From NCBI RefSeq assembly GCF_030848495.1, contig NZ_JAVDDT010000007.1, positions 62,001 through 126,000 on the forward strand: 64,000 nucleotides of DNA. Direction: 5' to 3'. Numbering within the stretch: the first letter of the stretch is position 1; each line of letters begins with the position of its first letter. Below, piece by piece: positions 1,514 to 60,194 of this stretch. This stretch comes from Natronospira bacteriovora. GTDB taxonomy: Bacteria; Pseudomonadota; Gammaproteobacteria; Natronospirales; Natronospiraceae. The notes below the pieces were generated by a model. It ran no database searches. It saw nothing but the letters and a program-made list of their open reading frames with translations, and was not told where the DNA came from. Both the position numbers and the translations under genes were made by a program.

Positions 1514-1733
1514 AGAGATTGGGACCACGAGATGGACACGAAATGGACACTAGATAAAAACCTTAAAAATCTAGCCGCGAGATGCACGCGAAATGGACGC
1601 AAGATGAAAGGCGACAAGATTTTTGGCCACAGATGAACACGGATGGACGCAGATGTGGGCCGTGCCTGGTGGGCCGGCGTGCCGCTTCGGAGGGGCCGTG
1701 CGTGACGGTGAGACAGGGTTGGCTACAGGCAGC

Positions 1734-1755
1734 GTGGGAGCGGATTTATCCGCGA
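1734..1755 (+). repeat. REP-like palindrome
   Basis: GTGGGAGCGG, then a GCGGATTTATCCGC hairpin. This matches the general pattern of Pseudomonas/Xanthomonas-type REP sequences (GTGGGAGCGG plus an imperfect palindrome). It pairs in inverted orientation with the copy at 1911-1933. Confidence 0.65.
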
Positions 1756-1910
1756 TTTCAATCACTCGGTTGGCAGGCCGTGTGTTTCCTGAGAGATCCG
1801 TGCCGAGGTCGAGCCGGCATTTTTTTCACAGAGATCACGGAGCGGGAGATTGTTTCGGTTTCGATAAAGCTTGCGTGTCGTCGATGGTGATTTGGCGCTG
1901 GATGGCTTGA

Positions 1911-1933
1911 TCGCGGCTGAAAGCCGCTCCCAC
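1911..1933 (-). repeat. REP-like palindrome, inverted partner
   Basis: On the minus strand it reads GTGGGAGCGGCTTTCAGCCG and continues to CGA. It is the inverted partner of 1734-1755, giving a REP doublet (REPIN/BIME-like) about 155 bases apart inside the trpC/crp element. No RAYT transposase gene is in the window. Confidence 0.65.
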
Positions 1934-2119
1934 AGGGGGGCAGTCAGCACCCGCAGTGCCAAGCCTTATCTTGTGTCCATTTAGTGTTCATTTCGTGGTC
2001 AATATCCCTCATGCCATCCCCAGGCACGGCCCCTCCGAAGCAGCACGGCGGCCCACCAGGCACGGCCCAAATCTAGCGTCCATTTCGCGTGCATCTCGCG
2101 GCTAAAGGTTTTCAGACCG

Positions 2120-3892: not shown

Positions 3893-4045
3893 CGGCCGGA
3901 GGCCGCTAGCTACAAGCCTCAAGCTACAAGCTTCAAGCAGCCCGTACTCTGTTCCTGCTCTCTGCGAGTAGAGGAGTGCCCCTGCGATTCAATCCATTGC
4001 GAGAGACTCTCGGTATGCACTGAGCAGCTTGCAGCTTGTAGCTCA
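3890..4045. repeat. Modular inverted-repeat element filling the speD/coq7 gap
   Basis: It starts with an 8-bp hairpin, TAGCGGCC-GGA-GGCCGCTA (3890-3908), whose first three bases are the speD stop codon. Then come 7-base tandem units of the AAGCTAC/AAGCTTC type (3907-3937). A roughly 85-base non-repeated middle follows, and inverted copies of the same units (4022-4044) run into the coq7 stop codon (TGA, then GCTACAAGC on the minus strand). The element occupies the complete gap between the convergent genes and probably acts as a two-way terminator. Confidence 0.75.
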
Positions 4046-27620: not shown

Positions 27621-27654
27621 ATACTCTCGACGCGGGCCGGCTTCCAGCACGAAT

Positions 27655-30237: not shown

Positions 30238-30247
30238 GTGGATGGTC

Positions 30248-30286: not shown

Positions 30287-30289
30287 GAA

Positions 30290-30330: not shown

Positions 30331-30363
30331 GACGGCATCATCAACGGGCGAGGAGAGCGAGCC

Positions 30364-31044
30364 GTGTTTGAACAGCAGGATATGTCCACTATGGAGGTAT
30401 TCACTCGGCGAGAAGTGCAGGCGGCGACAATCTGGCTGCATGGCCTGGGTGTGAACGCCAGCGACCTGAACGCCGTGATCAAGAATCTGAGCCAGTCGCG
30501 AGAGATGGGGCTTCACTACCTGGCACCCAATGCCCCCATGCGGCGAATCAGTGTGGATGAAGAGCGTCCGGCTCGGGCCTGGTTCGATGTCCTGGGTCAG
30601 CCGGGGGAGGCGCCGGAAGATTGCGACGGAATTGAGGAAAGCGCCCGCTTTCTGGTGGATATCCTGCAGCGTGAAGCCGAGCGGGGCATTCCTTCCGGCA
30701 AGACCGTGCTGGCCGGGTTCTCACAGGGTGCTTCCATGGCGCTGCATGTTGGTCTGCGACACGAACAGCCGCTGGCCGGCATCATTGCCCTGTCCGGTGA
30801 GCTGGTGCTTGCCGATGAGCTGCCAGAGGCGGCCAGCTCGGCCAACGGGAACACGCCCATTCTCATGATGCATGGGCAGGATGACGAAGTGGTTCCGGTG
30901 GAAGCGGCCCGGCGCAGTCGTGATCACCTGCTCGCACTTGGGTATTCGGTCGAGTGGCAAGAGTACCCGGTCGGACACAGTCTGAGCCCGGAGCAGATCG
31001 AGCGGATCGATCAGTGGATGATGGATGTGTTGAGCGCCGACTGA
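30364..31044 (+). CDS. Alpha/beta hydrolase, carboxylesterase/phospholipase (EstB/YpfH) family
   Basis: 226 residues from a GTG at 30364, chosen because AGGAG is 8 bases upstream. A TTG at 30319 is the longer alternative. Catalytic triad: Ser in LAGFSQGASMAL, Asp in MHGQDDEVVP and His in PVGHSLSPEQ; IWLHGLGVNASDL forms the oxyanion region. A cytosolic serine esterase with unknown substrate. It sits between the copper receptor and the nos genes behind an FNR-type box. Confidence 0.9.
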   Translation: MFEQQDMSTMEVFTRREVQAATIWLHGLGVNASDLNAVIKNLSQSREMGLHYLAPNAPMRRISVDEERPARAWFDVLGQPGEAPEDCDGIEESARFLVDILQREAERGIPSGKTVLAGFSQGASMALHVGLRHEQPLAGIIALSGELVLADELPEAASSANGNTPILMMHGQDDEVVPVEAARRSRDHLLALGYSVEWQEYPVGHSLSPEQIERIDQWMMDVLSAD

Positions 31045-31051
31045 CTGCCTT

Positions 31052-31405
31052 TCAGTCCCCCTCCATTTCGCGGCTGGGCATGAGCCAGCTCTCGTCCGGT
31101 TCATGCCCGGCGGCGGTGGCCTCCTGATAGGCAATCAGGAAGTGATCAAGCACATCGTCAACGGCTTCGCGAACGCTGGCGTAGTCGTCCTTTTCCGTTA
31201 CATCCGGGCTGCCCATTCCGGGTGCCTGCAGGTAATGGCTTTGCTCGGTTTCGAAACGCGCATTCCCTGGGCCACCGTAGATACGAAGGTGAATCGTCTC
31301 CGGGATGCCGTCGAGTCGAAAGCGAAATTCCTCCACAAGCTGACGGGCGGCGACGATCCCGTCTCGTCTGAACCCTTCCAACCCACTGTCTTGCGTTCTG
31401 CTCAT
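31052..31405 (-). CDS. Conserved-looking hypothetical protein
   Basis: 117 residues, not recognised. AAGGAG lies 8 bases before the ATG, and codon usage resembles neighbouring genes, so it is likely real. Features: RDGIVAARQLVEEFRFRLDGIPETIHLRIYGG-like segment (possible beta-alpha domain), an acidic C-terminal half (DVTEKDDYASVREAVDDVLDHF) and no signal or membrane segment. It is convergent with the hydrolase (7-base gap) and divergent from the nos cytochrome. Confidence 0.65.
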   Translation of the reverse strand: MSRTQDSGLEGFRRDGIVAARQLVEEFRFRLDGIPETIHLRIYGGPGNARFETEQSHYLQAPGMGSPDVTEKDDYASVREAVDDVLDHFLIAYQEATAAGHEPDESWLMPSREMEGD

Positions 31406-31490
31406 GTGAATGACTCCTTCTGATGGGGGAGGCCGCAGATCACTGCTCCAGGCCCGGTTTCGAGTAAAGCACAGGGAATCAAGTCAAAAC

Positions 31491-31532
31491 TTGTTCCAGA
31501 TCAAGTACGGACCGGCGCGCTTGAACCACAAT
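31491..31532 (+). promoter_or_regulatory. FNR/DNR-type promoter of the nos cluster
   Basis: TTGTTCCAGATCAA (31491-31504) matches TTGAT-N4-ATCAA at 9 of 10 positions. CACAAT (31527-31532) is 32 bases downstream, centre to centre, as in class II FNR promoters. A start near 31539 would give a roughly 40-base leader to the cytochrome gene. Confidence 0.72.
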
Positions 31533-31579
31533 ATGCGTAACAAAGATGCGCAATAATTCAGTGGAGAGTATGCAACGTC

Positions 31580-31903
31580 ATGAAAAATCTCAATAAAACA
31601 ATTCCTCTCTTCTTCGCCGCCCTGTGTCTGGGTGCCACCGCCCACGCCGAGCCGGGCGACAAGGATCGTGGCGAGGCCCGGGCCGCTACCTGTGCAGGCT
31701 GTCACGGTCAGGGCGGGAACAGCAGCATCCCCAGCCTGTACCCGAGCATCGCCGGCATGCCGGCCGCGGAGATGGAGGCGGCGCTCAAGGCCTTCCGGGA
31801 CGGCGAACGGGATGATCCCCAGATGGCGCCCCAGGCCACACACCTGAGCGATCAGGATATCCGCGATCTTGCGGCCTATTACGAGGCCCAGGAACGGAAA
31901 TAG
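31580..31903 (+). CDS. Small class I cytochrome c of the nos cluster
   Basis: 107 residues: signal peptide ending GATAHA, then a single CAGCH haem c site (about residues 38-42) and the axial Met in DPQMAPQATHLSDQDI. A periplasmic c553-type electron carrier, first gene of the nos cluster and 26 bases before nosR; it may donate electrons to NosZ, as NosC-like cytochromes are proposed to do. Confidence 0.9.
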   Translation: MKNLNKTIPLFFAALCLGATAHAEPGDKDRGEARAATCAGCHGQGGNSSIPSLYPSIAGMPAAEMEAALKAFRDGERDDPQMAPQATHLSDQDIRDLAAYYEAQERK

Positions 31904-31929
31904 GGCTGTTCACTCACCTCCACCATCGA

Positions 31930-34092
31930 GTGCAGGGAATGTCACGAGTTGTCATTGCAATACTCTTGCTGCTTGCCGGTGCGCCGGCGGCTGCCTTTGA
32001 ACAGGTTCGGGAGGAAGGCCGCGAGGCCTTCTTCCCGGATGCGGATCGTTTCGAGGTGGTGGATGGCGAACCCCCGGTGGAAGTGGCGTGGCGTGGTGAC
32101 GACCGCATAGGCCTGATCTTCGAGACCAATGATGTCTCACCCATACCGGCCTATTCCGGCAAGCCCGTGAACATGTTCGTGGGCATGGATCTGTCCGGCA
32201 CGGTCACAGGCGTTCGTGTGCTTGATCATGAAGAGCCCATCATGCTCGTCGGGATCCCGGAACGCCGTCTTCAGGAGTTCGTTGACCAGTACGTGGGGCA
32301 GAGCATCCGTGACCGCGTTCGTGTCGGGCTCTCGGCTCGTCAGCGGGAAGGCTACAACTACGTTGATGCCGTCTCCGGCGCCACCGTGACCGTAGTGGTC
32401 ATGGGGGAGGCCATCATGCAGGCGGCCCGTCGGGTTGCCGTGGCCCAAGGGCTGGTGGATCCGGATGCGGTTGCCGTTGCGCCGCCGGCCACGGTCCGCA
32501 TGGATCGCTTCGAAACCAGAACCTGGCGTGAGCTACGTGAACTGGAGGCTATCGGTCGCCTGCACCTCGCCTGGGGTGAGGTCGATGAGGCCTTTGAAGG
32601 GACGGACGCCGAAGGTGTGGATACCGCGCCCGAAGGGCGCGAAGACGAGACCTTCATTGAGCTTTACGCAGCCTACCTTAATACACCCACAACCGGCCGC
32701 AATCTCCTGGGGCAGGCGGCCTATGACCGCCTCATGGACCGCCTTTCGGAGGGTGAACACGCCATTTATCTGATGGCAGACGGTCGATATTCCTTCAAGG
32801 GATCCGGTTTCGTGCGGGGTGGCATCTTCGACCGAATTCAGGTTCACCAGGGCGAGACGGCCATCCAGTTTCGCGATACCGATCTGGTGCGGGCTTCACG
32901 CCCGGAAGCAGAGGGCAGCCCCTCCTTCGTCGAGCGCGACATCTTCATCATCCGTTCCGAGCATGAATTCAACCCCGGCAAGCCCTGGGAGCTTGATCTG
33001 CTGGTTCGGCGCCAGGTGGGCGCACTGGAATCCGAGTTCGTGAATTTTCCGCTGGACATGAATCCGGTGGAGGCCTGGTTCGATTATCCCGAACCGCAAC
33101 GGAGCATTGCCGAGGAGAGCGATCGCCCATTGTGGGTCAGTGTCTGGGAGGATCGGGTTGTCCACATCGTGGTGCTGGGCGCAGGCCTGCTGCTGCTGAC
33201 GTTCATCCTCCTCTTTCAGGACTGGCTTGCCCGCCGACCGCGCCTGTTGCACCGCCTGCGTACCGGCTTCCTGATCTACACCGTGGTGTTCATCGGCTGG
33301 TATGCCCTGGCCCAGCTGTCGGTGGTCAATATATTCACCTTCAGTAACGCTCTGTTCACCGATTTCCAGTGGTCCACCTTCCTGATGGACCCCATGATGT
33401 TCATCATGTGGACCTTCGTCGCCGCCACACTCCTGCTGTGGGGCCGGGGTGTTTATTGCGGCTGGCTATGCCCCTTCGGTGCCATGCAGGAACTGATCAA
33501 TGAAGCCTCTCGCAAGCTCAAGATTCCCCAATGGGAGTTGCCCTTCTTCATTCATGAGCGCCTCTGGTCACTCAAGTACCTGATTCTGCTCCTTCTGTTC
33601 GGTATCTCACTGCATTCTCTCGCTACTGCAGAAGTTTATGCCGAGGTTGAGCCCTTCAAGACCGCGGTGACCATGCGCTGGCAGCGGGAATGGGGTTTCG
33701 TGCTCTACGCCGTCATCCTGCTGGCCATTTCCATCGTCAATCGTAAATTCTTCTGCCGCTACATGTGCCCCCTGGGTGCCGGCTTGGCCATCCCGGCCCG
33801 CCTGCGGCTGTTTGACTGGCTCAAGCGCCACAAGGAGTGCGGCTCCCCATGCCAGATCTGTGCCCATGAATGCGAAGTGCAGGCCATTCATCCGGACGGT
33901 CGTATCAATCCGAATGAATGTCATTACTGCCTGGATTGCCAGGTGACCTACTGGAATGACCAGAAATGTCCGCCCATGATCCTGCGCCGCAAGCGCAAGG
34001 AAAAGGCGGCCCGTGTTTCATCCGCCAGCAAGCCTACTGAAGTGCCTCTGAAGCGGATGGATATCAAGCCGGCCAAACCGGCCAAAACGTGA
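31930..34092 (+). CDS. nosR: NosR, membrane flavo-iron-sulfur protein for N2O reduction
   Basis: 720 residues. Signal peptide, then a periplasmic FMN-binding domain with the flavinylation motif DAVSGATVT (Thr as flavin attachment site), several membrane helices, a CGWLCPFGAMQEL polyferredoxin-like CxxxCP site and two C-terminal 4Fe-4S clusters (CGSPCQICAHEC, CHYCLDCQVTYW). Needed for nosZ expression and activity. The start is GTG at 31930 or ATG at 31939; neither has a good ribosome-binding site. No ApbE/NosX flavin transferase lies in the window. Confidence 0.96.
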   Translation: MQGMSRVVIAILLLLAGAPAAAFEQVREEGREAFFPDADRFEVVDGEPPVEVAWRGDDRIGLIFETNDVSPIPAYSGKPVNMFVGMDLSGTVTGVRVLDHEEPIMLVGIPERRLQEFVDQYVGQSIRDRVRVGLSARQREGYNYVDAVSGATVTVVVMGEAIMQAARRVAVAQGLVDPDAVAVAPPATVRMDRFETRTWRELRELEAIGRLHLAWGEVDEAFEGTDAEGVDTAPEGREDETFIELYAAYLNTPTTGRNLLGQAAYDRLMDRLSEGEHAIYLMADGRYSFKGSGFVRGGIFDRIQVHQGETAIQFRDTDLVRASRPEAEGSPSFVERDIFIIRSEHEFNPGKPWELDLLVRRQVGALESEFVNFPLDMNPVEAWFDYPEPQRSIAEESDRPLWVSVWEDRVVHIVVLGAGLLLLTFILLFQDWLARRPRLLHRLRTGFLIYTVVFIGWYALAQLSVVNIFTFSNALFTDFQWSTFLMDPMMFIMWTFVAATLLLWGRGVYCGWLCPFGAMQELINEASRKLKIPQWELPFFIHERLWSLKYLILLLLFGISLHSLATAEVYAEVEPFKTAVTMRWQREWGFVLYAVILLAISIVNRKFFCRYMCPLGAGLAIPARLRLFDWLKRHKECGSPCQICAHECEVQAIHPDGRINPNECHYCLDCQVTYWNDQKCPPMILRRKRKEKAARVSSASKPTEVPLKRMDIKPAKPAKT

Positions 34093-34113
34093 GTAGAACG
34101 GGAGAGTGAGCTC

Positions 34114-36030
34114 ATGCCTGATCGGAAGAAGGAAATCGACAAAGCGAAGGAGGAGGCGGTTGCCGAAAATCCCGGCCGCCGCAAGTTCCTGGGCGTAACG
34201 GCCACCGTGGGTGCCCTGGGCATGACCGGCGCCACGGGTGCCGGCCTGATGCTGGGTGGCAGCGGCAAGGCGGAAGCACGGAGCCGTGGCAATGGTGGAA
34301 ATGACATTCACGTGGCACCCGGTGAGCTGGATGAATACTACGGCTTCTGGAGTGGCGGCCACTCCGGCGAAGTCAGGGTCTACGGCGTGCCGTCCATGCG
34401 CGAGATCATGCGTATCCCGGTGTTCAACCACTGTTCCGCCTCGGGCTGGGGAATGACCGATGAATCGAAGCGGATCATGGGTGATTCCCACCGATTCACC
34501 AATGGCGACGCCCACCACCCTCATGTGAGCTATACGGATGGTAGCCACGATGGACGCTACCTGTTCATCAACGACAAGGCCAACACACGTGTGGCGCGCA
34601 TTCGTCTGGATGTGTTCAAGACCGACAAGATGGTCACGGTCCCCAACGCTCAGGCCATCCACGGACTTCGGCTGCAGAAGGCACCGAAGACCGGATATGT
34701 CTTCGCGAATGGCGAGTACATCATTCCGCAGCCGAACGATGGCCGTGATCTGAATGATCCGGAGAAGTACTGGACGCTCTGGTCGGCAATCGATGCGGAA
34801 AGCATGGAAGTGAAGTGGCAGGTCATGGTCGATGGCAACCTGGATAACATGGATGCAGACTATACCGGCAAGTATGCTGCCGCCACCTGCTACAACTCCG
34901 AAAAGGCAATCACGCTCGCCGGCAAGATGCGCGCAGAGCGGGATTGGGTGGTCGTGTTCAATATCGAGCGCATCGAGGCGGCCGTTCGCAATGGCAATTT
35001 CCGCACCATCGGTGACTCGGACGTGCCCGTGGTGGATGGCCGCAAGGGCTCTGAAGTGACCCGCTACATTCCGGTACCGAAGAACCCTCATGGTCTGAAC
35101 ACTTCCACCGACGGCAAGTACTTCATTGCGGCGGGCAAGTTGTCGCCCACCGTCACCATGATCCAGATCGACAAGCTGGATGACCTTTTCGCCGGAAACC
35201 TCTCGGACGAACGGGACGTGGTGGCCGCCGAGCCGGAGCTGGGCCTTGGGCCGCTGCACACCACCTTCGATGGCCGTGGCAATGCCTATACCACTCTCTT
35301 CCTGGATAGTCAGGTCGTGAAGTGGAACATGGATCGGGCGGTGCGCAACTACAACGGCGAAGATGTTGACTACATCATCCAGAAGCTGGACGTGCATTAT
35401 CAGCCGGGCCATAACCATGCAACCCTGGCAGAGTCCAAGGATGCCGATGGCAAGTGGCTGTTCTCGCTGAACAAGTTCTCCAAGGATCGCTTCCTGCCGG
35501 TGGGGCCGCTGCATGCGGAAAATGACCAGATGATCGACATCTCCGGTGACGAGATGAAGCTGGTCCACGACACTCCCACCTTCGCCGAGCCCCATGATGC
35601 GGTCATCATCCGGCGCGATCAGATCACCACGTCGCAGATCTGGCGGCGGGACGATCCCTACTTCGCTGAAACCATCGAGATGGCGAAGAAGGATGGTGTC
35701 AACGTGGATCGTGACAACAAGATCATTCGGGACGGCAACAAGGTGCGTGTCTACATGACCTCCATCGCCCCCAATTTCGGCATCACCGAGTTCAAGGTGA
35801 AGCAGGGTGATGAAGTCACTGTGGTGGTTACCAACCTGGATCGTATCGAGGACCTGAGCCACGGGTTCTGCCTGGTGGATCATGGCGTCAGCATGGAAGT
35901 CAGCCCACAGCAGACGGCCTCCATTACGTTCAAGGCGGATAAGCCTGGCGTCTTCTGGTACTACTGCAACTGGTTCTGCCACGCCCTGCACATGGAAATG
36001 GGCGGCCGGATGCTTGTCGAGAAGGCCTGA
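34114..36030 (+). CDS. nosZ: Nitrous oxide reductase NosZ, clade I (Tat-exported)
   Basis: Reduces N2O to N2 in the periplasm. 638 residues with a twin-arginine signal (GRRKFLG, about residues 20-27), a seven-bladed propeller carrying CuZ histidines (DAHHPHVS, about 131-138; [40 protein letters not shown]) and a C-terminal cupredoxin with the CuA motif [12 protein letters not shown] (Cys618, Cys622, His626, Met629). The Tat signal marks clade I. The tatA at 39.7 kb and nosDFYL maturation genes support it. Confidence 0.98.
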
Positions 36031-36086
36031 AGTACATCGCGCCGCGGAGGGCAGGGATGCCCTCCGCTCGCATGAGATGGATTGAA

Positions 36087-37379
36087 ATGAAACAACTGTT
36101 CCTTGGTTTGTGCCTGAGCCTTCTGAGCCTGGCCCTTTGGGCCGGCGAGGAAGGTCTACCCGTGGCGCCAGGGGAATTGTCGAATCTACTGGCCACGGCG
36201 GAGCCTGGCAGTACGCTGGTGCTTGAGCCCGGGGTTCATCCGGGGGGTGTGCGTATCGAGACCTCCATTACCCTGAAAGCCATGGAAGGTGCCGTCCTTG
36301 ACGGTTTCGCCAATGGCACGGTGCTCGATATCGCGGCGCCCAACGTGACCGTCAGTGGTGTGCATCTGCGCAATGACGGTGCCAATCTAACCCGCATGGA
36401 TGCCGTCATTTTCGTGGCGGCCGATGCCACTGGCGTCCGGCTGCTCGATAATCGGATCGAGGCAAGAGGGTTCGGCATCTGGCTGGATGGCTCCCAGGAT
36501 GCCGTGGTGCGCGGGAATCGCATCAGTGGTGATCCTGCTCTCCGTTCCCAGGATCGTGGCAACGGGATACATCTGTTCAATGTTCGCAATGCGCTTGTCG
36601 AGAACAATGAGGTCTGGTTGGCCCGTGACGGAATTTACATTGACGTAAGCAACGAGAATCGCCTGATTGGCAATTTTCTGCACAATCAGCGTTATGGCAT
36701 CCACTACATGTACTCCCACCACAATGAGGTGCGCGGCAATCGAACCCGGGAGAACCGGACGGGTTTTGCGCTCATGTCTTCCACGCATCTCGAAATCATT
36801 GATAACCATGCTGATGGTGACGAGGGTTACGGCTTCCTTCTCAACGACGTGACCAGTTCACGCATTGAAGGTAATACCGCCCGAAATATCCGTCACAGCA
36901 CCAACCCCGGTGGCGGCTCTGCGATTCGGGGTGGGGAAGGCAAGGCCATGTTCGTCTACAACGCCCAGTTCAATTCCATTCGCCGCAATGTGCTGGCTTA
37001 TACCGATATCGGGATCCATCTGACAGCCGGCTCGGAAGGGAACGAGATTTCCGAGAACGCGCTTCTGAGTAATCGCACTCAGGTCATGTATGTGGCAACC
37101 CGGAAACAGGAATGGTCCGTTGACGGCCGTGGAAACTACTGGAGCGATTACATGGGTTGGGACCTGAACGGTGATGGAATTGGCGACACCCCCCATCAGC
37201 CCAACGACTCCGTGGATCGTATTCTCTGGACGTACCCCATGGCCAGAGTGCTCATGAACAGCCCAGCGGTCCAGCTGTTGCGATGGGTGCAACGTGAGTT
37301 CCCCGTGCTGCGCCCGTCAGGTGTGACCGATAGCGCCCCACTGATGCGCCCACCTCGTTCCCTGGAGGAATTCGAATGA
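36087..37379 (+). CDS. nosD: NosD periplasmic copper/sulfur-centre maturation protein
   Basis: 430 residues from the ATG at 36087 (MKQLFLGLCLSL, a normal signal peptide); the in-frame start at 36057 would add ten residues before it. The mature part is a right-handed parallel beta-helix of NosD/CASH repeats (NVTVSGVHLRNDG, GNGIHLFNVRNALVENNEVW, NRLIGNFLHNQRYGIHYMYSHHN in overlapping pieces). It works with NosF-NosY in assembling CuZ. The stop overlaps the nosF start (ATGA). Confidence 0.95.
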   Translation: MKQLFLGLCLSLLSLALWAGEEGLPVAPGELSNLLATAEPGSTLVLEPGVHPGGVRIETSITLKAMEGAVLDGFANGTVLDIAAPNVTVSGVHLRNDGANLTRMDAVIFVAADATGVRLLDNRIEARGFGIWLDGSQDAVVRGNRISGDPALRSQDRGNGIHLFNVRNALVENNEVWLARDGIYIDVSNENRLIGNFLHNQRYGIHYMYSHHNEVRGNRTRENRTGFALMSSTHLEIIDNHADGDEGYGFLLNDVTSSRIEGNTARNIRHSTNPGGGSAIRGGEGKAMFVYNAQFNSIRRNVLAYTDIGIHLTAGSEGNEISENALLSNRTQVMYVATRKQEWSVDGRGNYWSDYMGWDLNGDGIGDTPHQPNDSVDRILWTYPMARVLMNSPAVQLLRWVQREFPVLRPSGVTDSAPLMRPPRSLEEFE

Positions 37380-38326
37380 ATGCCGCGGTAGAACTCCACA
37401 AAGTCACCCGTCGATTCGGTCCGCTGGAGGCAGTCAAGGAACTGGATCTCGTGGTGGAAGCGGGTGAGGTATTGGGACTGCTCGGCCACAATGGTGCCGG
37501 CAAGTCCACCACGATGAAGATGATGCTGGGTGTGCTGGCACCCACCGGTGGCCAGGTGCGGGTATTGGGTGAGGACCCCCGTGGGCGCCATGCGGATCGG
37601 TTGCGACTCAAGCTGGGCTACCTGCCGGAGAACGTCAGTTTCTATGACAATCTCAGCGGTCGTGAAGTCCTGCGTTATTTTGCCCGCCTCAAGCGGGTTG
37701 CCATCCCCCGGGCGGATACCATGCTGGAGCGGGTGGGCCTGGGTCATGCGGCCGACCGCCGCGTGCGCACGTATTCCAAGGGCATGCGTCAGCGTCTGGG
37801 CCTGGCCCAGGCGCTGCTGGGAGAGCCCCGTCTGCTGTTGCTGGACGAGCCCACTGTCGGGCTGGATCCCATGGCCACCCGTGACGTGTACACGATGATT
37901 GACGAGCTGCGCGGCAATGGCAGCAGCGTCATTCTCTGTTCCCACGTGCTGCCGGGCGTGGAGCGGCATATTGACCGGGTGGCGATCCTGGCTCAGGGCC
38001 GCCTGCTGGCTTCGGGCAGCATTGAAGCCCTCCGGAAAGAGGCCGGTCTACCCCTGCGCATTCAAGCTCGCAGCACTCAGCTCAATGGCAATCTGCGCCA
38101 GCGCCTGGGTGAGCGCATATTGAGTATGGAAGACATGGGTGGTGAGCAGATCGTGTTGACGACCTCGGCCGACCAGAAGCTTGAGGTCATGCGTATCCTG
38201 CTGGACAGCCCCGATGTTCACGATCTGAGCGTTGAGCACCCCAGTCTGGAAAATCTCTATGCCCATTTTGACGCTCAGGTGACGGGTGAACGGGCCGGAC
38301 GGATGGAGGGGCATGGACATGCGTGA
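37376..38326 (+). CDS. nosF: NosF ABC transporter ATPase
   Basis: 316 residues with Walker A GHNGAGKST, Q-loop region YLPENVSFYDNLSG, signature YSKGMRQRLGLAQ, Walker B LLLLDEPTVGLD and switch His in ILCSHVLPG. It powers the NosY permease for NosZ copper-sulfur centre assembly. It overlaps nosD by 4 bases and nosY by 8. Confidence 0.96.
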   Translation: MNAAVELHKVTRRFGPLEAVKELDLVVEAGEVLGLLGHNGAGKSTTMKMMLGVLAPTGGQVRVLGEDPRGRHADRLRLKLGYLPENVSFYDNLSGREVLRYFARLKRVAIPRADTMLERVGLGHAADRRVRTYSKGMRQRLGLAQALLGEPRLLLLDEPTVGLDPMATRDVYTMIDELRGNGSSVILCSHVLPGVERHIDRVAILAQGRLLASGSIEALRKEAGLPLRIQARSTQLNGNLRQRLGERILSMEDMGGEQIVLTTSADQKLEVMRILLDSPDVHDLSVEHPSLENLYAHFDAQVTGERAGRMEGHGHA

Positions 38327-39149
38327 AGTATTGATTGTGGCCGGAAAGGAGTTTCGTGACGGTCTGCGCAACCGCTGGATCATCGCCATTACGCTGGCCT
38401 TTGCTCTGCTGGCATTGGGCCTGGCCTGGGTGGGGGCGGCGGCCTCCGGTGAGATCGGTTTTACCCGTATTTCCACCACGATTGTCAGTCTGGCCAGTCT
38501 TGCCGTGTTTCTGATTCCCCTGATTGCCCTGATGCTTGCCTATGACAGCATCGTGGGAGAGGAAGAAAAGGGAACGCTTCTGCTGCTGATGACCTATCCC
38601 CTGAGCCGGGTGGCCCTGCTGGCGGGAAAGTTTATCGGGCATGGGGGCATTCTCGCACTGTCCACGCTGCTGGGTTTTGGCATCGCCGCAGCCGCCATTG
38701 CCGCCCTGTCGGAGGGTGCCTATCTGTCCGAGATGGCAGGGCCTTTTGCCCTGTTCATCCTCAGTGCCATTCTTCTGGGCTGGGCCTTCCTGGCCGTTGC
38801 CTATCTGATCAGCGTGCTGACGCGGGAGAAGGCGCGTGCCGCCGGGCTGGCGCTGCTCGCCTGGTTCCTCTTCGTGCTGGTCTATGACCTGGCACTGCTG
38901 GGCCTGCTGGTGGGGACTGAGGGGCGTATCGATGGCGGATTGTTTCGCATTCTGCTGCTGCTCAACCCCACCGATGTCTTTCGAATCATCAATCTGACCG
39001 GCTTCGAGGAAGCGGCCGCGGCCAGTGGCATGCTTTCGGTCGTGGCCGAGCAGGGCTACGCCGTTGGCAATCTGCTGCTGATCCTGCTGGCCTGGGCGGT
39101 TGTTCCCCTGTTGGCGGCAGCCGGTCTGTTTGCTGCCCGTCGCAGCTGA
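38319..39149 (+). CDS. nosY: NosY ABC transporter permease
   Basis: 276 residues, the usual NosY length, from the ATG at 38319; GGAGGG lies 8 bases upstream. ATG at 38313 and GTG at 38286 are less likely. About six membrane helices and the ABC-2 permease motif YDSIVGEEEKGTLLLLMTYPL. It partners NosF at the inner membrane. Confidence 0.95.
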   Translation: MREVLIVAGKEFRDGLRNRWIIAITLAFALLALGLAWVGAAASGEIGFTRISTTIVSLASLAVFLIPLIALMLAYDSIVGEEEKGTLLLLMTYPLSRVALLAGKFIGHGGILALSTLLGFGIAAAAIAALSEGAYLSEMAGPFALFILSAILLGWAFLAVAYLISVLTREKARAAGLALLAWFLFVLVYDLALLGLLVGTEGRIDGGLFRILLLLNPTDVFRIINLTGFEEAAAASGMLSVVAEQGYAVGNLLLILLAWAVVPLLAAAGLFAARRS

Positions 39150-39164
39150 TCAAAGGAGGAATAC

Positions 39165-39665
39165 ATGGGTTCCAGACGAGATGCTCTTATACTGCTGGCC
39201 GGTCTGCCTGCCTTGATGTTGATGGCTTGTGGCGACGGCAGGGAAGCGGCAGCCAACTGCAAGGCCGTCACTCTGAGCGATGAGCATGATTGTGCCCTGT
39301 GTGGCATGACCGTGGTGCGTCATCCCGGGCCCAAGGGGCAGGCCTGTCTGCGCAATGGGGACATTCTGCCCTTCTGCTCAACCAGCGACCTGCTTTCCTG
39401 GGCCTGGCAGCCGGAGTCCGGACCAGCGATCGAGGCCCTGTTCGTGCATGACCTGTCCCGCACGGATTGGGAATCGCCGTCGGATGAGACCTACGTGTTG
39501 GCCGGCGATGCCTGGTACGTGGCCGGCCATCAACGACGTGGTGCCATGGGCTATCCTCCGGCGCCCTTCACGGAGAGAGCCGATGCCGAGGCCTTTGCCG
39601 AACAGCATGGCGGACGTGTCTACACCTTCAACGATCTGAGTTTTGACATCATTCGGGGCCGCTGA
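39165..39665 (+). CDS. nosL: NosL copper-delivery lipoprotein
   Basis: 166 residues with a lipobox (LMLMAC, lipidated Cys near residue 22), CALCGMTVVRHPGPKGQ (copper-binding Cys/Met region), and PEDETYVLAGD-like and GYPPAPF segments of the NosL family. It delivers Cu(I) to apo-NosZ from the periplasmic membrane face. A strong AAGGAGG precedes the ATG, 15 bases after nosY. Confidence 0.94.
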   Translation: MGSRRDALILLAGLPALMLMACGDGREAAANCKAVTLSDEHDCALCGMTVVRHPGPKGQACLRNGDILPFCSTSDLLSWAWQPESGPAIEALFVHDLSRTDWESPSDETYVLAGDAWYVAGHQRRGAMGYPPAPFTERADAEAFAEQHGGRVYTFNDLSFDIIRGR

Positions 39666-39710
39666 GCGCGATCGGTGACGACGCCGTTACACGGCGCAGG
39701 AGTGCAAATT

Positions 39711-39977
39711 ATGGGTATCGGTGGAATTGGCATCTGGCAGCTGTTGATCGTGCTGGCCATCGTGGTGCTGCTGTTTGGCACCAAGCGTCTGCGGAGCCTG
39801 GGCAGTGACCTGGGTGGGGCGCTCAAGGGTTTCAAGGGCGCCATGCGTGAAGTGGATGAGGTGGAAAAGGACGTTCGCGAGGCCGGCGAGGAAGTAAGTG
39901 CGGATGTTCCGCGTCTTGCCGCGGAAGAGCGGGCTTCATCGTCGCAGAAGGACACGGCGGTGGAAAAGACTTCCTAG
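39711..39977 (+). CDS. tatA: TatA/TatE-family twin-arginine translocase subunit
   Basis: 88 residues from the ATG at 39711 (AGGAG 8 bases upstream). A short N-terminal membrane helix ([17 protein letters not shown]) is followed by the amphipathic [21 protein letters not shown] and an acidic tail. A nos-linked tatA/E is known from P. stutzeri, and here it is the last gene of the cluster, fitting Tat export of NosZ. No tatB or tatC follows. Confidence 0.94.
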
Positions 39978-40006
39978 CGACCCACCAGGGGTAGCCCCTT
40001 TCCTTG

Positions 40007-40029
40007 GCAGCCGCCAGTGTCGCGGCTGC
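40007..40029. terminator. Hairpin between tatA and the convergent oxidoreductase
   Basis: GCAGCCGC, loop CAGTGTC, GCGGCTGC, 30 bases after tatA and 23 bases beyond the convergent beta-subunit stop. No T-run on either strand. Confidence 0.45.
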
Positions 40030-40051
40030 GGAGGGAGGACCTTGCGAGGCT

Positions 40052-40891
40052 CTACACCTGGAAAGCGGCCTCGATCTCCTGAAGCTGTTCAATGGGCCTT
40101 TCCGGGGCCGCCCGATGGGCGACGTCCTGCCGATAAAGCAGGCCGGTCGTGAAGCCGTCGTTTTCCAGCAATTGTTGATAGGCCTCCCCGCGATTCGCCG
40201 TTTCACGGAATCCCGCGTGTACCTGCTTTTTGTATTGCATCTGCTCCGGCCGGAAAGTGGGGCAGGGGCTCAGTATCTGCAGGAAGGCAAAGCCGGGGTG
40301 GCGAATTCCCTCACTGATGAGCTCCGCCAGGCCGTTGGGGTCGCCCGAGAAGGCGCGGGCGATGAAACCGCAGCCCGCGGCCAATGCCACTTCCAGCGGC
40401 TGGAAAGGGGCCTGATCGGTTCCGTCCGGCTGCATCTGGCTTTCATCCCATCCTGCCTCGGTGGTAGGTGAGGGTTGCCCCTTGGTCATGCCGTAGACGG
40501 CATTGTCCATCACCAGATAGGTCACATTGGCATCCCGACGACAGGCGTGCAGGAAATGATTGCCCCCGATGGAAAAACCGTCTCCATCACCACCCGCTGC
40601 CAGCACCGTGAGATCCGGCCGGCTCAGGGCCAGCCCGGTGGCCACCGGCAGGGCACGCCCGTGGGCACCGTGAAACCCGTAGCTGCGCGTGTAGGCTGGA
40701 ATCCGGGATGAGCAGCCAATACCGGAAATGAAGGCCACTTCATGGGAGGGGATGGCCAGCGTGGACAGTGCCTTGGTTACGGCATTCAGCACCCCGAAAT
40801 CACCACAGCCGGGGCACCAAACCGGCTTCAGGCCTGACTTGTAATCCTTCGGCTTGCAGGGGCGGTCAACGGAGTGAATGGGCAGGTTCAT
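40052..40891 (-). CDS. 2-oxoacid:ferredoxin oxidoreductase, beta subunit
   Basis: A 279-residue ThDP-binding subunit: WCPGCGDFGVLNAVTKAL, ISGIGCSSRIPAY, HGRALPVATGLALSRPDL, the ThDP/Mg motif GGDGDGFSIGGNHFLH and VMDNAVYGMTKGQPSPTT. This is the KorB/PorB family (2-oxoglutarate or pyruvate to acyl-CoA plus reduced ferredoxin). Two-subunit enzymes with this arrangement often use 2-oxoglutarate; the substrate is not proven. It overlaps the alpha gene by 4 bases. Confidence 0.93.
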   Translation of the reverse strand: MNLPIHSVDRPCKPKDYKSGLKPVWCPGCGDFGVLNAVTKALSTLAIPSHEVAFISGIGCSSRIPAYTRSYGFHGAHGRALPVATGLALSRPDLTVLAAGGDGDGFSIGGNHFLHACRRDANVTYLVMDNAVYGMTKGQPSPTTEAGWDESQMQPDGTDQAPFQPLEVALAAGCGFIARAFSGDPNGLAELISEGIRHPGFAFLQILSPCPTFRPEQMQYKKQVHAGFRETANRGEAYQQLLENDGFTTGLLYRQDVAHRAAPERPIEQLQEIEAAFQV

Positions 40892-42633
40892 GCGGCCAGC
40901 TCCCGGATGGCATGAAGGATTTCACCGGGCCGGAGGTTGATGGGGCCCGGCCGGTGCAGGGTGTGACGGTGTGGTGGCAGCTCGTAGTTGGCCCGCAGAT
41001 AATGCTCGAACTGTCGGCCGTGACTCTGTTCCACCACCAGCAAGCGCTCCACGCCGGACAGTGTCTCCTGCATGTGCTCGGGCAGTGCCGGAGCCAGCAG
41101 GCGCAGCGAGATCAGCCGCACCTGCATGCCCTCCGCCCGGGCCTGGGACAGGGCTTCACGAACCGGCCCGGTCAGGGAACCCCAGGTGAGAATGGCCAGG
41201 GGTGCGTCACCGTCCACATCCGCCCAGCGTTTGCCATAGTCATGCGCCAGCAGCTTGTCGCGCCGTCGATCCAGCTGCTCGATATGGTCTTCCGCCAGGC
41301 TGGATGGCCGCCCCTTGCGATCGTGGCTCAGCCCTTCGGCGGTGTATTCGCCACCCACGGTGCCCGGGATGGCCATGGCGGGCACATGAGCCTGGCCGGG
41401 GCCATAGCGTTCGTAGTCAGCCTCGGGAGCGGTCGCAACGTTGCGTGCTGTCATCGGGCCGGTCTCCCCGGGTGCGGCAATGACTGCCCGGGTCTGCGCC
41501 AGACTCTGGTCATTCAGAACAATGGCCGGACATTGCAGGGCCTCGGCCAGGTCCAGGCTCCACTGGGTGGTGTGGACGCAATCCTCGATGCTGTTGGGGG
41601 CGATCACCAGATGTGGCGCGTCACCGTGTGTCCCGTACAGGGCCAGATTGAGGTCGGATTGCTCGGAGCGGGTCGGAATGCCGGTGGATGGGCCACCACG
41701 CATGACATTGATGATCACGACGGGGGTCTCCGAGGCGACGGCGAGACCGATGGATTCGCTCATCAGTGACAGTCCGGGGCCGGAGGTGGCGGTCATGGCA
41801 CGCTTGCCACCAAAGGAGGCGCCAAGACACATATTGATGGTCGCCAGTTCGTCTTCGGCCTGTACCAGCTGGCCCCCGAGTCGGGGCAGCTGTCCGGCCA
41901 GCCATTCCACGATGTCGGTGGACGGTGTGATGGGATAGGCGGCGCAGAATGCCAGCCCACCCCTGAGGGCCCCGGTGGCAGCCGCCTCATTGCCGGAGAT
42001 CAGCCAACGTCCGCCAGCGGCCCTCCCGTCGGCCGGTGGCAGCTCGATGCCGGCTCCGTCATTGAGCCGATCGGCCTGGTCGCAGCCGGCGTGCAGACTC
42101 TCCCTGGCCGCTGTCAGCACCGTCTCTCCCTTGCTGGAAAGGCCGCCACAGACCGTGTCTTCCAGCAGGGCACGTGGCAGACCCGCCAGGCCGGACAGAA
42201 ATCCCAGGCCGATCATGTTGCTCCGCCCACCGGGGATCCCCTTCGCCAGCTCAGCCAGAGGAAGTGCCAACTGCCGGGCGTTGCTCTCGAGGATGAAATC
42301 GGGAATCGCGCCCTGAGCCGGATCGAAGATGACCAGGCTGGCTTCATCCAGGGGGAGTTCAGCCCGGAAGCGCTCGACATTGATCCAATCCAGCGCCATC
42401 AGTACGTCAATGCGGTCGCCCTGGTTCTGGACTGGCCAGTTCGCCAGGCGCAGCAGGGCGGCGGCCTCTCCACCGCGGATCTGAGGCCCGTATGAGCGCC
42501 CCATCACCCCGTGGAGGCCGTGACGCGCCGCAGCCTTCAGCAGCATCTCGCCGGCGCTCATCACGCCGCTGCCGCCACTGCCGGTCAGCGCGATGGAGAG
42601 CGAGCTGGGTTTGGATTCGGCGGGTGGGGACAC
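40888..42633 (-). CDS. 2-oxoacid:ferredoxin oxidoreductase, fused gamma-alpha subunit
   Basis: 581 residues: N-terminal gamma domain (about 10-195; GSGGSGVMSAGEMLLKAA, GRSYGPQIRGGEAA) fused to the alpha (pyrimidine-binding) domain (about 205-581; ISGNEAAATGALRGGLAFCAAYPITPSTDI, TSGPGLSLMSESIGLA and RGGPSTGIPTRSEQSDL). The first gene of a two-gene operon behind a perfect FNR-type box. No cysteine-rich delta domain is encoded, so it depends on external ferredoxin. It would act beside pyruvate dehydrogenase or the TCA cycle under low oxygen. Confidence 0.93.
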   Translation of the reverse strand: MSPPAESKPSSLSIALTGSGGSGVMSAGEMLLKAAARHGLHGVMGRSYGPQIRGGEAAALLRLANWPVQNQGDRIDVLMALDWINVERFRAELPLDEASLVIFDPAQGAIPDFILESNARQLALPLAELAKGIPGGRSNMIGLGFLSGLAGLPRALLEDTVCGGLSSKGETVLTAARESLHAGCDQADRLNDGAGIELPPADGRAAGGRWLISGNEAAATGALRGGLAFCAAYPITPSTDIVEWLAGQLPRLGGQLVQAEDELATINMCLGASFGGKRAMTATSGPGLSLMSESIGLAVASETPVVIINVMRGGPSTGIPTRSEQSDLNLALYGTHGDAPHLVIAPNSIEDCVHTTQWSLDLAEALQCPAIVLNDQSLAQTRAVIAAPGETGPMTARNVATAPEADYERYGPGQAHVPAMAIPGTVGGEYTAEGLSHDRKGRPSSLAEDHIEQLDRRRDKLLAHDYGKRWADVDGDAPLAILTWGSLTGPVREALSQARAEGMQVRLISLRLLAPALPEHMQETLSGVERLLVVEQSHGRQFEHYLRANYELPPHRHTLHRPGPINLRPGEILHAIRELAA

Positions 42634-42669
42634 GGTCCATCCTCGGGCTCAGTGTTAGATTAGAAAATC

Positions 42670-42711
42670 ATTATGAAGGCCCGGGTCTGAAATTGGCTTG
42701 ATCTGGATCAA
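42670..42711 (-). promoter_or_regulatory. FNR-activated promoter of the 2-oxoacid:ferredoxin oxidoreductase
   Basis: TTGATCTGGATCAA (42698-42711) is a perfect FNR/ANR palindrome. On the minus strand CATAAT (42675-42670) lies exactly 32 bases from the box centre, the class II geometry, giving a start near 42663 and a 30-base leader. Confidence 0.75.
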
Positions 42712-42729
42712 TAGAAGCGAGGCGGGTGC

Positions 42730-42759
42730 CTGACGGCCGGAGCCCGCCTTCGGTATAAT
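42730..42759 (+). promoter_or_regulatory. hppD promoter
   Basis: Consensus TATAAT (42754-42759) with CTGACG (42730-42735) 18 bases upstream. The predicted start near 42766 puts the FNR-type box of the divergent operon at about -62, a class I position, so shared control is possible. Confidence 0.7.
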
Positions 42760-42876
42760 GGCCGCAACCGCATTTCTCTGGCGGCACATCCCGACCAGCG
42801 CCGGGCCCGGAACAAGCCGGGAGGGGCGGCGTTCGTCGTGGTGCCGCATTCTGTGACTTTCCAACGGAGAGCGATC

Positions 42877-43935
42877 ATGAGCGAACAGTACGACAACCCC
42901 ATGGGGACCGATGGTTTTGATTTCGTCGAGTACGCGGCGCCGGAACCGCAGCTGCTGCACGATCTCTTCAAGGCCATGGGCTTTACCGCCGTGGCCAAGC
43001 ACAAGAAGCGCAATGTCACCCTGTATCGCCAGAACGACAGCAACTTCCTGGTGAACGAGGAGCCCGGCAGCTTCGCCGAAGATTTCGCCAGGGAACACGG
43101 CCCCTGCGCGACCGGCTTTGCGATCCGCGTCAAGGACGCCGATCACGCCATCAAGCTGGCCCTGGAAAAGGGTGCCACCCAGTTTGGCAAGAAGCCCGAG
43201 ACCCTGGCCGTGGATGCGCCGGCCATCGAAGGCATCGGTGGCAGTGCCCTCTACCTGGTGGATCAGTACGGTGACCAGGGCGACCTCTACGAGGATCAGT
43301 TCGACTTCTTCGAAGGCGTGGAAAAGCGGCCCAAGGGCTTCGGTCTGGATTATGTGGATCACCTGACCCACAACGTCCACTACGGCAACATGGACGAGTG
43401 GTGCAAGTTCTACGAGGATCTCTTCAACTTCCGTCAGATCCGCTACTTCGACATCAAGGGCAAGAAAACCGGCCTGAACTCCCGGGCCATGACCAGCCCG
43501 GACGGCATGGTGCGGATTCCGATCAACGAGTCCTCGGATGACAAGTCCCAGATCGTCGAGTACCTGAACGAGTACAATGGCGAGGGTATCCAGCACATTG
43601 CCCTGTTCACCGACAACATCTACGACACCGTGGAGAACCTGCGCAGCAAGGGTATCGACTTCCTGGATACCCCGGATGCCTACTACGAGCTGATCGACGA
43701 GCGCATCCCCAACCACGGCCAGCCCGTGGACAAGATGCAGGACCTGCGCCTGCTGATTGACGCTGACCAGGAGCACAAGGACCGTCTGCTGCTGCAGATC
43801 TTCACCAAGAACGTCATCGGCCCGATCTTCTTCGAGATCATCCAGCGCAAGGGCAATGAAGGCTTCGGTGAAGGCAACTTCACCGCCCTGTTCGAAGCCA
43901 TCGAGCGCGACCAGGAGAAGCGGGGCGTTCTCTAA
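42877..43935 (+). CDS. hppD: 4-hydroxyphenylpyruvate dioxygenase
   Basis: Turns 4-hydroxyphenylpyruvate into homogentisate with O2. 352 residues from the ATG at 42877 (GGAG upstream); an in-frame start at 42838 is not used. The vicinal-oxygen-chelate fold shows the iron ligands in YVDHLTHNVH (His), EGIQHIALFT (His) and FFEIIQRKGNEGFGEGNF (Glu). It is the first of the tyrosine-degradation genes, with hmgA, fahA and maiA following in pathway-compatible order. Confidence 0.97.
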   Translation: MSEQYDNPMGTDGFDFVEYAAPEPQLLHDLFKAMGFTAVAKHKKRNVTLYRQNDSNFLVNEEPGSFAEDFAREHGPCATGFAIRVKDADHAIKLALEKGATQFGKKPETLAVDAPAIEGIGGSALYLVDQYGDQGDLYEDQFDFFEGVEKRPKGFGLDYVDHLTHNVHYGNMDEWCKFYEDLFNFRQIRYFDIKGKKTGLNSRAMTSPDGMVRIPINESSDDKSQIVEYLNEYNGEGIQHIALFTDNIYDTVENLRSKGIDFLDTPDAYYELIDERIPNHGQPVDKMQDLRLLIDADQEHKDRLLLQIFTKNVIGPIFFEIIQRKGNEGFGEGNFTALFEAIERDQEKRGVL

Positions 43936-43937: not shown

Positions 43938-44030
43938 AGTGAACAGATGAAAGTGAACAGTGAACAGATGGGGCGGGCGTAGCCCGCCCGCTTCTTCCTG
44001 TTTACTGGGAACTGTTCACTGGGGACTCTT
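43938..44030. repeat. Modular inverted-repeat element between hppD and hmgA
   Basis: Left arm: three GTGAACAG units (43939-43968). Centre: a perfect 8-bp hairpin GGGCGGGC-GTA-GCCCGCCC (43971-43989). Right arm: inverted ACTGGGAACTGTTCACTGGG units. It begins 3 bases after the hppD stop. This is the short version of the elements at 46414, 55495 and 60021 and lacks their GGCCGTGCC core. The hairpin may terminate or attenuate between hppD and hmgA. Confidence 0.8.
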
Positions 44031-45437: not shown

Positions 45438-46418
45438 ATGAAACTGGCATCCCTGAAAAAGGGTCGTGATGGCGAGCTGATCATCGTCAGCCGTGATCTC
45501 AAGCAGGCCGTGAAGGCCAGTGATATTGCCCCGACGCTGCAGGCCGCCCTGGAAGACTGGGCCACTGTGGAGTCGAAGCTCAAGGCGCGTTTCGATGAGC
45601 TGGAGGCCGGCAAGGCCGAGGGCAGCTTTGCCTTCACGCAGGATGAAGTGGCCGCCGTGCTGCCGCGCAACTTCCAGTTCCTGGATGGCAGCGCCTACCT
45701 GCCCCACGTGGAGCGGGTCCGCAAGGCTCGTGGTGCCGAGCTGCCGCCCCAACTGCTGGACGATCCCCTGATGTACCAGGCCGTCAACGATGGTTATGAC
45801 AGCCCGCGGGATCCCATCCGGGTGGCCAGTGAAGACTATGGCATCGACTTCGAGTCCGAAGTGGGTGTGATCGTGGATGATGTGCCCATGGGCGTCTCCG
45901 AGGAAGAGGCCGGCAAGCACATCAAGCTGATCCTGATCCTCAACGACGTGTCCCTGCGCAAGCTGATTCCGGCCGAACTGGCCAAGGGCTTTGGCTTCAT
46001 TCACGGCAAGCCTCGGTCCGCACTTTCTCCGGTCGCCATCACCCCGGATGAGCTGGGCGAAGCCTGGCAGGGCTACAAGGTTCATCTGCCACTGATCACC
46101 CATTACAAGGGTGAAGAATTCGGGCGCCCGAACTGTGGTGTGGACATGCAGTTCAGCTTTGCCCGCCTGGTGGCCCATGCCGCCAAGACCCGGCCGCTGG
46201 CTGCCGGTACCCTGGTGGGCTCCGGCACCATTGCCAACCGGGACGAGTCCCTGGGTTCCTCCTGCCTGGCCGAGAAGAACGTGCTGGAAGTCATCAACGA
46301 AGGCGAGGCCAAGACCGGCTTCATGAAGTTCGGTGACACCGTGAAGATCGAAATGCTGAATGCCGATGGCCATTCCATTTTCGGATCCATCGAGCAGACG
46401 GTGGAACAGTATAAGTGA
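45438..46418 (+). CDS. fahA: Fumarylacetoacetate hydrolase
   Basis: Cleaves fumarylacetoacetate to fumarate and acetoacetate. 326 residues from the ATG at 45438 (AAGGAG 10 bases upstream); the frame opens at 45420 without a good start. Metal ligands are seen in DYGIDFESEVGVI (Asp, Glu, Glu), and the C-terminal part has SGTIANRDESLGSSCLAEKN and FMKFGDTVKIEM. The stop codon is read from the first unit of the downstream repeat (AAG TGA ACAG). Confidence 0.95.
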   Translation: MKLASLKKGRDGELIIVSRDLKQAVKASDIAPTLQAALEDWATVESKLKARFDELEAGKAEGSFAFTQDEVAAVLPRNFQFLDGSAYLPHVERVRKARGAELPPQLLDDPLMYQAVNDGYDSPRDPIRVASEDYGIDFESEVGVIVDDVPMGVSEEEAGKHIKLILILNDVSLRKLIPAELAKGFGFIHGKPRSALSPVAITPDELGEAWQGYKVHLPLITHYKGEEFGRPNCGVDMQFSFARLVAHAAKTRPLAAGTLVGSGTIANRDESLGSSCLAEKNVLEVINEGEAKTGFMKFGDTVKIEMLNADGHSIFGSIEQTVEQYK

Positions 46419-46599
46419 ACAGTGAACAGTTCCCAGTGAACAGCAGGCCGTGCCCACGGAGTTGCCGTGCCGCTTCGGCAGGGCAGCACACACCCAAGGC
46501 TTAGAAGTCAACAGTAGACAAGCCGTGAATGCACGGCGAGCCTGTTCACTGGGAACTGGGAACTGGGAACTGGGAACTGGGAACTGGGAACTGTTCACT
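46414..46599. repeat. Modular inverted-repeat element between fahA and maiA
   Basis: Left arm AGTGAACAGTGAACAGTTCC and further GTGAACAG (46414-46444); core GGCCGTGCCCACGG...GTGCCGCTTCGGCAGGGC (46446-46484); right arm with five 7-base GAACTGG units and CTGTTCACT (46549-46599). It overlaps the fahA stop and ends 6 bases before the maiA ribosome-binding site (AGGAGG). Confidence 0.85.
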
Positions 46600-55494: not shown

Positions 55495-55690
55495 AAGTGA
55501 ACAGTTCCCTGATGGGAAGTGAACAGTTCCCAGTTCCCAGTGAACAGTAGGGCCGTAGCCCGTGAAGTTGCGGTGCCGCTTCGGCAAGGCCCCGGTAGGG
55601 AACCTCTGATTTTGAAATGGCAACGGTGTCTCAGGAACCAGTAGGCCCTTCGGTTGGCTCGGCCAGCTGTTCACTGGGAACTGTTCACTA
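55495..55690. repeat. Modular inverted-repeat element between etfB and ETF-QO
   Basis: Left arm AAGTGAACAGTTCCC repeats (55495-55546), core GGCCGTAGCCCGTG...GTGCCGCTTCGGCAAGGCC (55551-55590), and a roughly 75-base tail ending in the inverted arm CTGTTCACTGGGAACTGTTCACT (split at 55667-55690). The right end is 3 bases from the ETF-QO stop codon. Confidence 0.85.
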
Positions 55691-60020: not shown

Positions 60021-60194
60021 AGTGAACAGTTCCCAGTTCCCAGTGAACAGCTGGCCGTGCCCGTGAAAATGCCCTGCCGCTATGGCAGGACCGTGCCAAT
60101 TTGAGGCTTTGTGTGGCACCAGCATTTCAGGAAACAGGAGGCTGTTCGGCGGGCACAGCCAGCTGTTCACTGGGAACTGCTCACTGTTCACTTG
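60021..60194. repeat. Modular inverted-repeat element between ccoS and ccoI
   Basis: Left arm AGTGAACAGTTCCCAGTTCC and CAGTGAACAG (60021-60050), core GGCCGTGCCCGTGAAAATGC...CTGCCGCTATGGCAGG (60053-60097), right arm CTGTTCACTGGGAACTG and TCACTGTTCACTT (60163-60194). The right end forms the last codons and stop of ccoI (AGT GAA CAG TGA). Confidence 0.85.

Follow-up and report, generated by a model that had tools for sequence, protein, structure and literature searches.

What are the elements that lie between protein genes of Natronospira bacteriovora, e.g. at positions 55495-55690 of the window, i.e. of the whole 64,000-nucleotide stretch analysed here (C7:62001-126000 of the genome G000, which comprises 3.0 Mb in 15 contigs), and by what are they spread and kept uniform? 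The initial annotation had described four gaps (1521-2117, 46414-46599, 55495-55690 and 60021-60194) with related cores between inverted tandem-repeat arms, and had taken them for a mobile or templated family, MITE-like or REP-like, that combines a shared core with exchangeable arms and is spread by an unlinked enzyme.

Architecture of the repeat-bounded elements

The four gaps are organised as described, including the two inverted cores of the first one, the trp element, whose interior also contains one REP pair. The elements at 3890-4045 and 43938-44027 have the arms-hairpin-arms layout without the core, as had likewise been noted. In window coordinates (plus or minus gives the strand, all other features being unstranded; G001 and G002 are sister genomes) the parts are:

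1521..2117: trp element, composite, with 11-mer arms, of the GxxExxY-type family; site empty in G002
1526-1550, 1576-1611, 1628-1655, 1973-2001, 2071-2106: arms of the trp element
1657..1703, plus: forward core copy of the trp element, GGGCCGTGCC..GCGTGCCGCTTCGG..
2021..2068, minus: inverted core copy of the trp element
3908..4043: element of the 7-mer kind whose arms (AGCTACA/AGCTTCA) belong to the family found in G002; site empty in G002
43938..44027: short element with AGTGAAC heptamer arms and a short GC hairpin, without the family core; AGCTGCA-type arms at the same site in G002
46414..46443: left arm of the fah-maiA element; site empty in G002
46444..46540, plus: core of the fah-maiA element
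46541..46599: right arm of the fah-maiA element, consisting of 8 heptamers; in G001 it is 35 bp shorter
55496..55511: additional outer partial arm of the 55495 element, AGTGAACAGTTCCCTG, outside the main left arm
55518..55547: left arm of the 55495 element, 4 heptamers, AGTGAAC AGTTCCC AGTTCCC AGTGAAC AG
55548..55666, plus: core of the 55495 element in forward orientation, GGCCGT..GGTGCCGCTTCGG..CAGGAACCAGTAGGC..GGCTCGGCC
55667..55689: right arm of the 55495 element, inverted heptamers CTGTTCACTGGGAACTGTTCACT, predicted to pair with the left arm (z=-5.8 for the fold)
60021..60050: left arm of the ccoI-ccoS element
60051..60162, plus: core of the ccoI-ccoS element
60163..60192: right arm of the ccoI-ccoS element

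The arm units of the AGTGAAC family are 7 bp long and read AGTGAAC or AGTTCCC inward on the left arm and the reverse complement on the right; exact copies of these two make up 94% of the arm units (n=190), and most arms have four units. Hairpin folding via the arms, with the complementary ends forming the stem, is predicted for three elements (z = -5.8, -6.4 and -10.4). Searched genome-wide, the elements prove to be a dispersed family: the heptamer pattern CAGTTCCCAGTTCCC has 30 exact matches in G000 versus 0 for the reversed-pattern control, and at least about 37 elements with AGTGAAC/AGTTCCC arms, 80-230 bp long, were catalogued, copy counts being lower bounds as they derive from searches and fetched stretches of G000. 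With the 55495 element as query, full-length copies were recovered at 71-77% identity and E-values down to 7.7e-28. Family members in G000 have near-identical arms and differing cores. Many cores were found in reverse orientation, and at C4:71145, C4:76491, C4:289600, C1:438698 and C7:57611 the AGTGAAC-family arms are retained around an unrelated core.

The 11-bp arms of the trp element belong to a separate and more numerous family on C4, C5, C6 and C8. After removal of the selecting motif, 43 cores of this family reached a mean score of 28.7 versus 16.7 for dinucleotide shuffles, and 93% of them exceeded the maximum of 860 shuffles, which relates them to the core of the 7-mer family. As the core is common to both arm families in G000, the arms are exchangeable, and the proposal of a shared core with exchangeable arms is borne out in a stronger form than originally put forward. 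The two families appear to occupy largely different contigs of G000 (C1/C3/C7 for the AGTGAAC 7-mer family, C4/C5/C6/C8 for the 11-mer family).

The elements sit within operons (ccoI-ccoS, etfQO-etfB, fah-maiA). Intrinsic terminators were rejected as an explanation, in agreement with the earlier view that these are not ordinary terminators, on the basis of these positions and of 14 terminator-like sites in the region versus 13.3 expected from shuffled sequence; among the elements only the one at 43938 has a weak terminator match (GC stem and T run). A structured-RNA core was also rejected (RNAalifold -2.9 kcal/mol, no covariation), and the Rfam matches in the window are a 6S RNA (RF00013, 11472-11655) and a tRNA, with nothing else. 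At 46414-46599 the element parts the fah and maiA genes and is followed by a Shine-Dalgarno-like AGGAGG; the genes flanking this site in G002 overlap by stop/start (ATGA).

Positions and arms in sister genomes

The window is syntenic with C2 of the sister species G002, in which empty sites are indeed found at three of the six window positions (1521, 3890 and 46414). The other three (43938, 55495 and 60021) hold AGCTGCA/AGCTACA-type arms and different cores, and the 55495 site in G001 carries a third arm type, AGCTACG. Four elements were found in the part of G002 that is syntenic, and three of them use window sites, for which the chance probability is roughly estimated at 0.01 (34 gaps). The flanks are 70-90% identical and, at the empty sites, too diverged for a target-site duplication to be defined from G002 or G001.

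About 10 of the 13 AGTGAAC-arm elements of G001 lie at sites orthologous to G000. At orthologous sites of these two genomes identity amounts to 98.9% for the arms (430/435), 83.5% for the cores (599/717) and 86-88% for the flanks (arm versus core, p=5e-20; arm versus near flank, p=1e-15); whole 7-bp units have been gained and lost, and one core has been replaced (C3:177204). The orthologous positions and the identities of arms, cores and flanks show that the elements are old and positionally stable in the genus, that the arms are constrained or homogenised and that the cores are free. AGTGAAC arms are nearly invariant within the family and at orthologous sites and change mainly by whole 7-bp units. 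Cores diverge, invert and get replaced, and the unit sequence varies by species and locus. No comparable copies of the 11-mer family were found in the two sister genomes.

Two further observations come from the same comparison. About 15 kb (window 27616-42883) are missing at the syntenic position of G002, where the adjacent blocks are 0.2 kb apart, making this segment a candidate genomic island. A coding repeat at 9806-10074 (15 bp x 17.9 copies) is present in G002, too.

Genes carried between the arms

A PF05635 search revealed four S23/IVP genes in G000, all encoding TIGR02436 four-helix-bundle proteins. One of them, L062 (C3:170229; 111.6 bits against PF05635/TIGR02436, cut-off 33.8), lies inside AGTGAAC/AGTTCCC arms; the window elements themselves are ORF-less.

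G000:C3:170117-170632: ORF-bearing 7-mer copy with the S23 gene L062, family arms and the core start of the gene-less elements

Short tandem arrays flank all four S23 genes and are inverted and matching in three, e.g. as AGTTCTG/AGTGCTG arrays around L061 and CGTTGT-type hexamers around L064. At L063 the units differ, GAGGACT repeats on one flank facing a separate GAGTGAGGCGT-type repeat on the opposite flank, so that it is not a clean inverted pair. In G002 no S23 gene is detectable, though 7-mer elements are present, so the arms persist without S23. A phage origin was rejected, as no S23 relative of L062 occurs among 50,697 phage records, and so was a defence system, as there is no PADLOC match.

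The association of S23 genes with such arrays extends to many phyla. A first sample, selected by similarity to the S23 proteins of G000 from 84,980 species genomes, comprised 80 loci, 78 of which had enough flank. Inverted matching arrays surround the gene at 51 of these 78 loci, 45 of them with period 7, versus 47 of 940 control windows of the same loci, only 4 of them with period 7, and 216 of 1954 mismatched-locus controls (left flank of one locus, right flank of another). An independent draw from 299 Pseudomonadota genomes gave inverted arrays at 29 of 48 S23 loci (26 with period 7) versus 3 of 121 controls (1 with period 7); the strict two-sided test is failed by 27 of 78 and 19 of 48 S23 loci, respectively. 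The unit sequence differs from locus to locus, and unit similarity climbs with S23 identity (about 3.5 of 7 positions at 20-50%, 4.8 at 60-70%). Units read inward contain AG rather than CT at 35 versus 8 loci (p=4e-5). In another proteobacterium both 23S rRNA genes harbour an S23 gene with inverted heptamer arms (L256/L257; G189:C1:1863760 and 2100178) at the place of the classical intervening sequence (IVS), the sole rDNA case in the sample. On cyanobacterial plasmids S23 genes have arms such as AGTAGGG, GGGAACA and GGGTGTA, which resemble the long-known repeats called STRRs. On the Anabaena plasmid pANA02 (NC_019429.1; L268) an S23 gene with GTGACAG heptamer arms is located between cas6 and cas4; it is probably not a cas gene but an element that has inserted there.

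A second protein family accompanies the longer arms. Four PF13366 GxxExxY genes of the genus are each enclosed by inverted arms about 9-11 bp long, and in one of them, L303 (G000:C13; TIGR04256, 137 bits), the 11-mer arms are exactly those of the trp type and a core end is present. Its translation shows, by eye, the D..ELK expected for a PD-(D/E)XK protein; the full GxxExxY..D..ExK regular expression was too strict, matching 15 of 33 loci and missing L303. In flanking complementarity 30 of the 33 GxxExxY loci exceed every control, with periods of 8-11 and never 7, and period 7 is found in 71 of 80 S23 hits versus 0 of 25 GxxExxY hits (p=5e-17). At the sequence level, the protein family thus pairs with the arm period (S23 with 7, GxxExxY with 8-11) in other bacteria, too. 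No transposase was found inside the ORF-bearing copies of either kind.

A structure model of S23 built from 73 relatives (mean pLDDT 94) matches 2gsc (Xcc0516) and 2rld, followed by Avd (4dwl/8ube; TM 0.62-0.74), and 13 of the 73 relatives match bAvd, too. By its title, the paper on the Xcc0516 structure (Lin 2006, among the references of PMC3936711) deals with five assembled four-helix bundles. The L062 protein is acidic, with a pI of 5.6 versus a family median of 8.9.

Discussion

We consider it probable that the elements are MITE-like, gene-less representatives of a class of small, selfish-looking hairpins with inverted short-tandem-repeat arrays at both ends, whose ORF-bearing copies carry S23 or GxxExxY genes. 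In G000, copies with the same arms encode an S23/IVP protein in the 7-mer family and a GxxExxY PD-(D/E)XK protein in the 11-mer family, and with the arrangement in G189 a classical 23S rRNA IVS is one rDNA-resident form of the class. The first interpretation as a whole is partly supported: the dispersed, gene-less family stands, the REP-like part does not, and instead of an unlinked enzyme there are linked candidate proteins, S23/IVP and the GxxExxY nuclease fold, which are not transposases. Against this reading stand the facts that family arms are borne by just a single S23 copy and a single GxxExxY copy, that the 7-mer elements of G002 persist with no S23 gene detectable, which speaks against a strict need for S23, that part of the S23 loci fail the strict two-sided test, that the first S23 sample was selected by similarity, that no target-site duplication could be defined and that the L062 protein is acidic; the conserved arms could alternatively have a local function at each site.

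As to the mechanism, the movement of the elements and the upkeep of arm uniformity, we infer that recognition is specific, each small protein binding the arms of the family to which it belongs. The S23 pentamer would contact the repeats at fixed spacing, on a single strand or a hairpin; by analogy, repeats that vary in sequence but keep a 7-bp spacing would suit a ring-shaped protein touching regularly spaced bases. The GxxExxY protein may cut, and insertion would be rare and proceed via host replication or repair. Uniform arms would result if arms that are no longer recognised cease to function or to be recopied, slippage may alter the unit number, and the cores would be passengers swapped by recombination through the arms.

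The class has likenesses to several known systems. Like the elements here, 23S rRNA IVSs can contain an S23/IVP ORF between complementary ends and exist in ORF-less versions, and they have been described as selfish, possibly transposition remnants (PMC4990558); unlike them, the elements here are many-copy, have periodic multi-unit arms and, in the window, are dispersed between protein genes rather than located in rRNA genes. Cyanobacterial STRRs and other heptameric SSRs (GGGAATC in Xanthomonas, GGGGATT in Nostoc, TAACTGA in Beggiatoaceae) are also 7-base, intergenic, sometimes inverted pairs, and conserved in position among relatives; such repeats have been reported before without being explained (PMC4692102, which includes the Nostoc heptamers, and PMC4679880). 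These reports make no connection to S23 genes, whereas units of this kind are present here at the S23 loci of cyanobacterial plasmids. MITEs are likewise short and ORF-less with conserved inverted ends and a variable interior, but share terminal repeats with a transposase-bearing parent, whereas the ends here are tandem arrays, the ORF-bearing copies encode S23 or GxxExxY proteins and no transposase, and no target-site duplication is established. In the open-access literature, to which the search was confined, we found no report tying S23 or GxxExxY genes to the repeats, no published link between IVSs and heptamer arrays and no 23S IVS described together with a mobile element.

Selected mRNA structure or a regulon is possible as the cause of arm maintenance, and each is also a rival explanation of the elements as a whole, although either would leave both protein associations unexplained. 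According to the first, the arms are SSRs that arose by slippage and stem extension, were retained for their structure in the mRNA (as a means of stability or operon polarity) and never had a mobile ancestor. Length changes by whole units, positions within operons and arms more conserved than coding flanks are in line with this idea, as is the attribution of heptamer SSR abundance to slippage in earlier work, as related in PMC4679880. Nevertheless, we regard it as unlikely, since it does not account for the association of one gene family per period, the identical units at about 37 unlinked sites or the core common to two arm families. According to the second, a regulatory protein or RNA binds to the arms, with S23 as target or regulator rather than mobility factor; here the conservation of arms at fixed orthologous sites, the TAACTGA-repeat binding protein proposed by MacGregor 2015 and the 83% of heptamer sites common to two xanthomonads (Rehm 2015) have to be set against unrelated units at the same sites in sister species, neighbouring genes unrelated in function and the occurrence of S23 inside 23S rRNA genes as well, so that a regulon seems quite improbable.

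An RNA-templated, i.e. reverse-transcribed, element related to diversity-generating retroelements is very unlikely: the fold that S23 has in common with Avd, and the relatives matching bAvd, are the likeness, but a reverse transcriptase, template and variable repeat are missing here, with no RVT_1 domain in the 97%-complete G000, and the core is without base-pair covariation. An RNA-templated origin of the arms is accordingly without support.

REP/BIME-type elements moved by a RAYT (TnpA-REP) transposase, which are intergenic hairpins in bacterial chromosomes, too, and for which one Y1_Tnp gene per genome of the genus is available, are hardly credible and were rejected, as the elements have multi-unit arrays as arms and are not linked to the Y1 transposase, which is flanked by ordinary REPs (GTGGGAGNGGCTTTAGCC..) without heptamer arms and thus goes with a different REP.

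L214 (G000:C5:201536), L213 and L212: RAYT genes, one per genome, with GTGGGAG/GTAGGAG REP flanks

REPs of this GTGGGAG/GTAGGAG type sit inside several element cores as separate insertions.

More broadly, and only tentatively, much of the unexplained intergenic excess of 7-base (and 9-11-base) tandem repeats might be debris of previously unrecognised selfish elements without transposase. A dedicated small protein, an S23/Avd-fold pentamer or a GxxExxY nuclease, would then read a periodic array by its repeat length, which is particular to that protein, and not by a fixed sequence; the rDNA branch would be formed by the 23S rRNA IVSs, and arms would be rewritten genome-wide when one family replaces another; we hold this wider view to be possible, though rather doubtful. 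The class of repeat-bounded hairpin elements links three puzzles, i.e. what the S23 and GxxExxY families, which are very widespread, do, how 23S rRNA IVSs arose and why bacteria have an excess of heptamer tandem repeats, and offers a simple rule, namely that the protein family goes with the repeat period. S23 genes have previously been found in rRNA insertions of CPR bacteria (PMC11270868) and in cas loci (PMC3936711), and those in CRISPR-cas loci, of which one was checked, may be inserted elements instead of cas genes. Likewise, some of the unexplained 7-base repeats scattered in bacterial genomes may have their origin in such elements.
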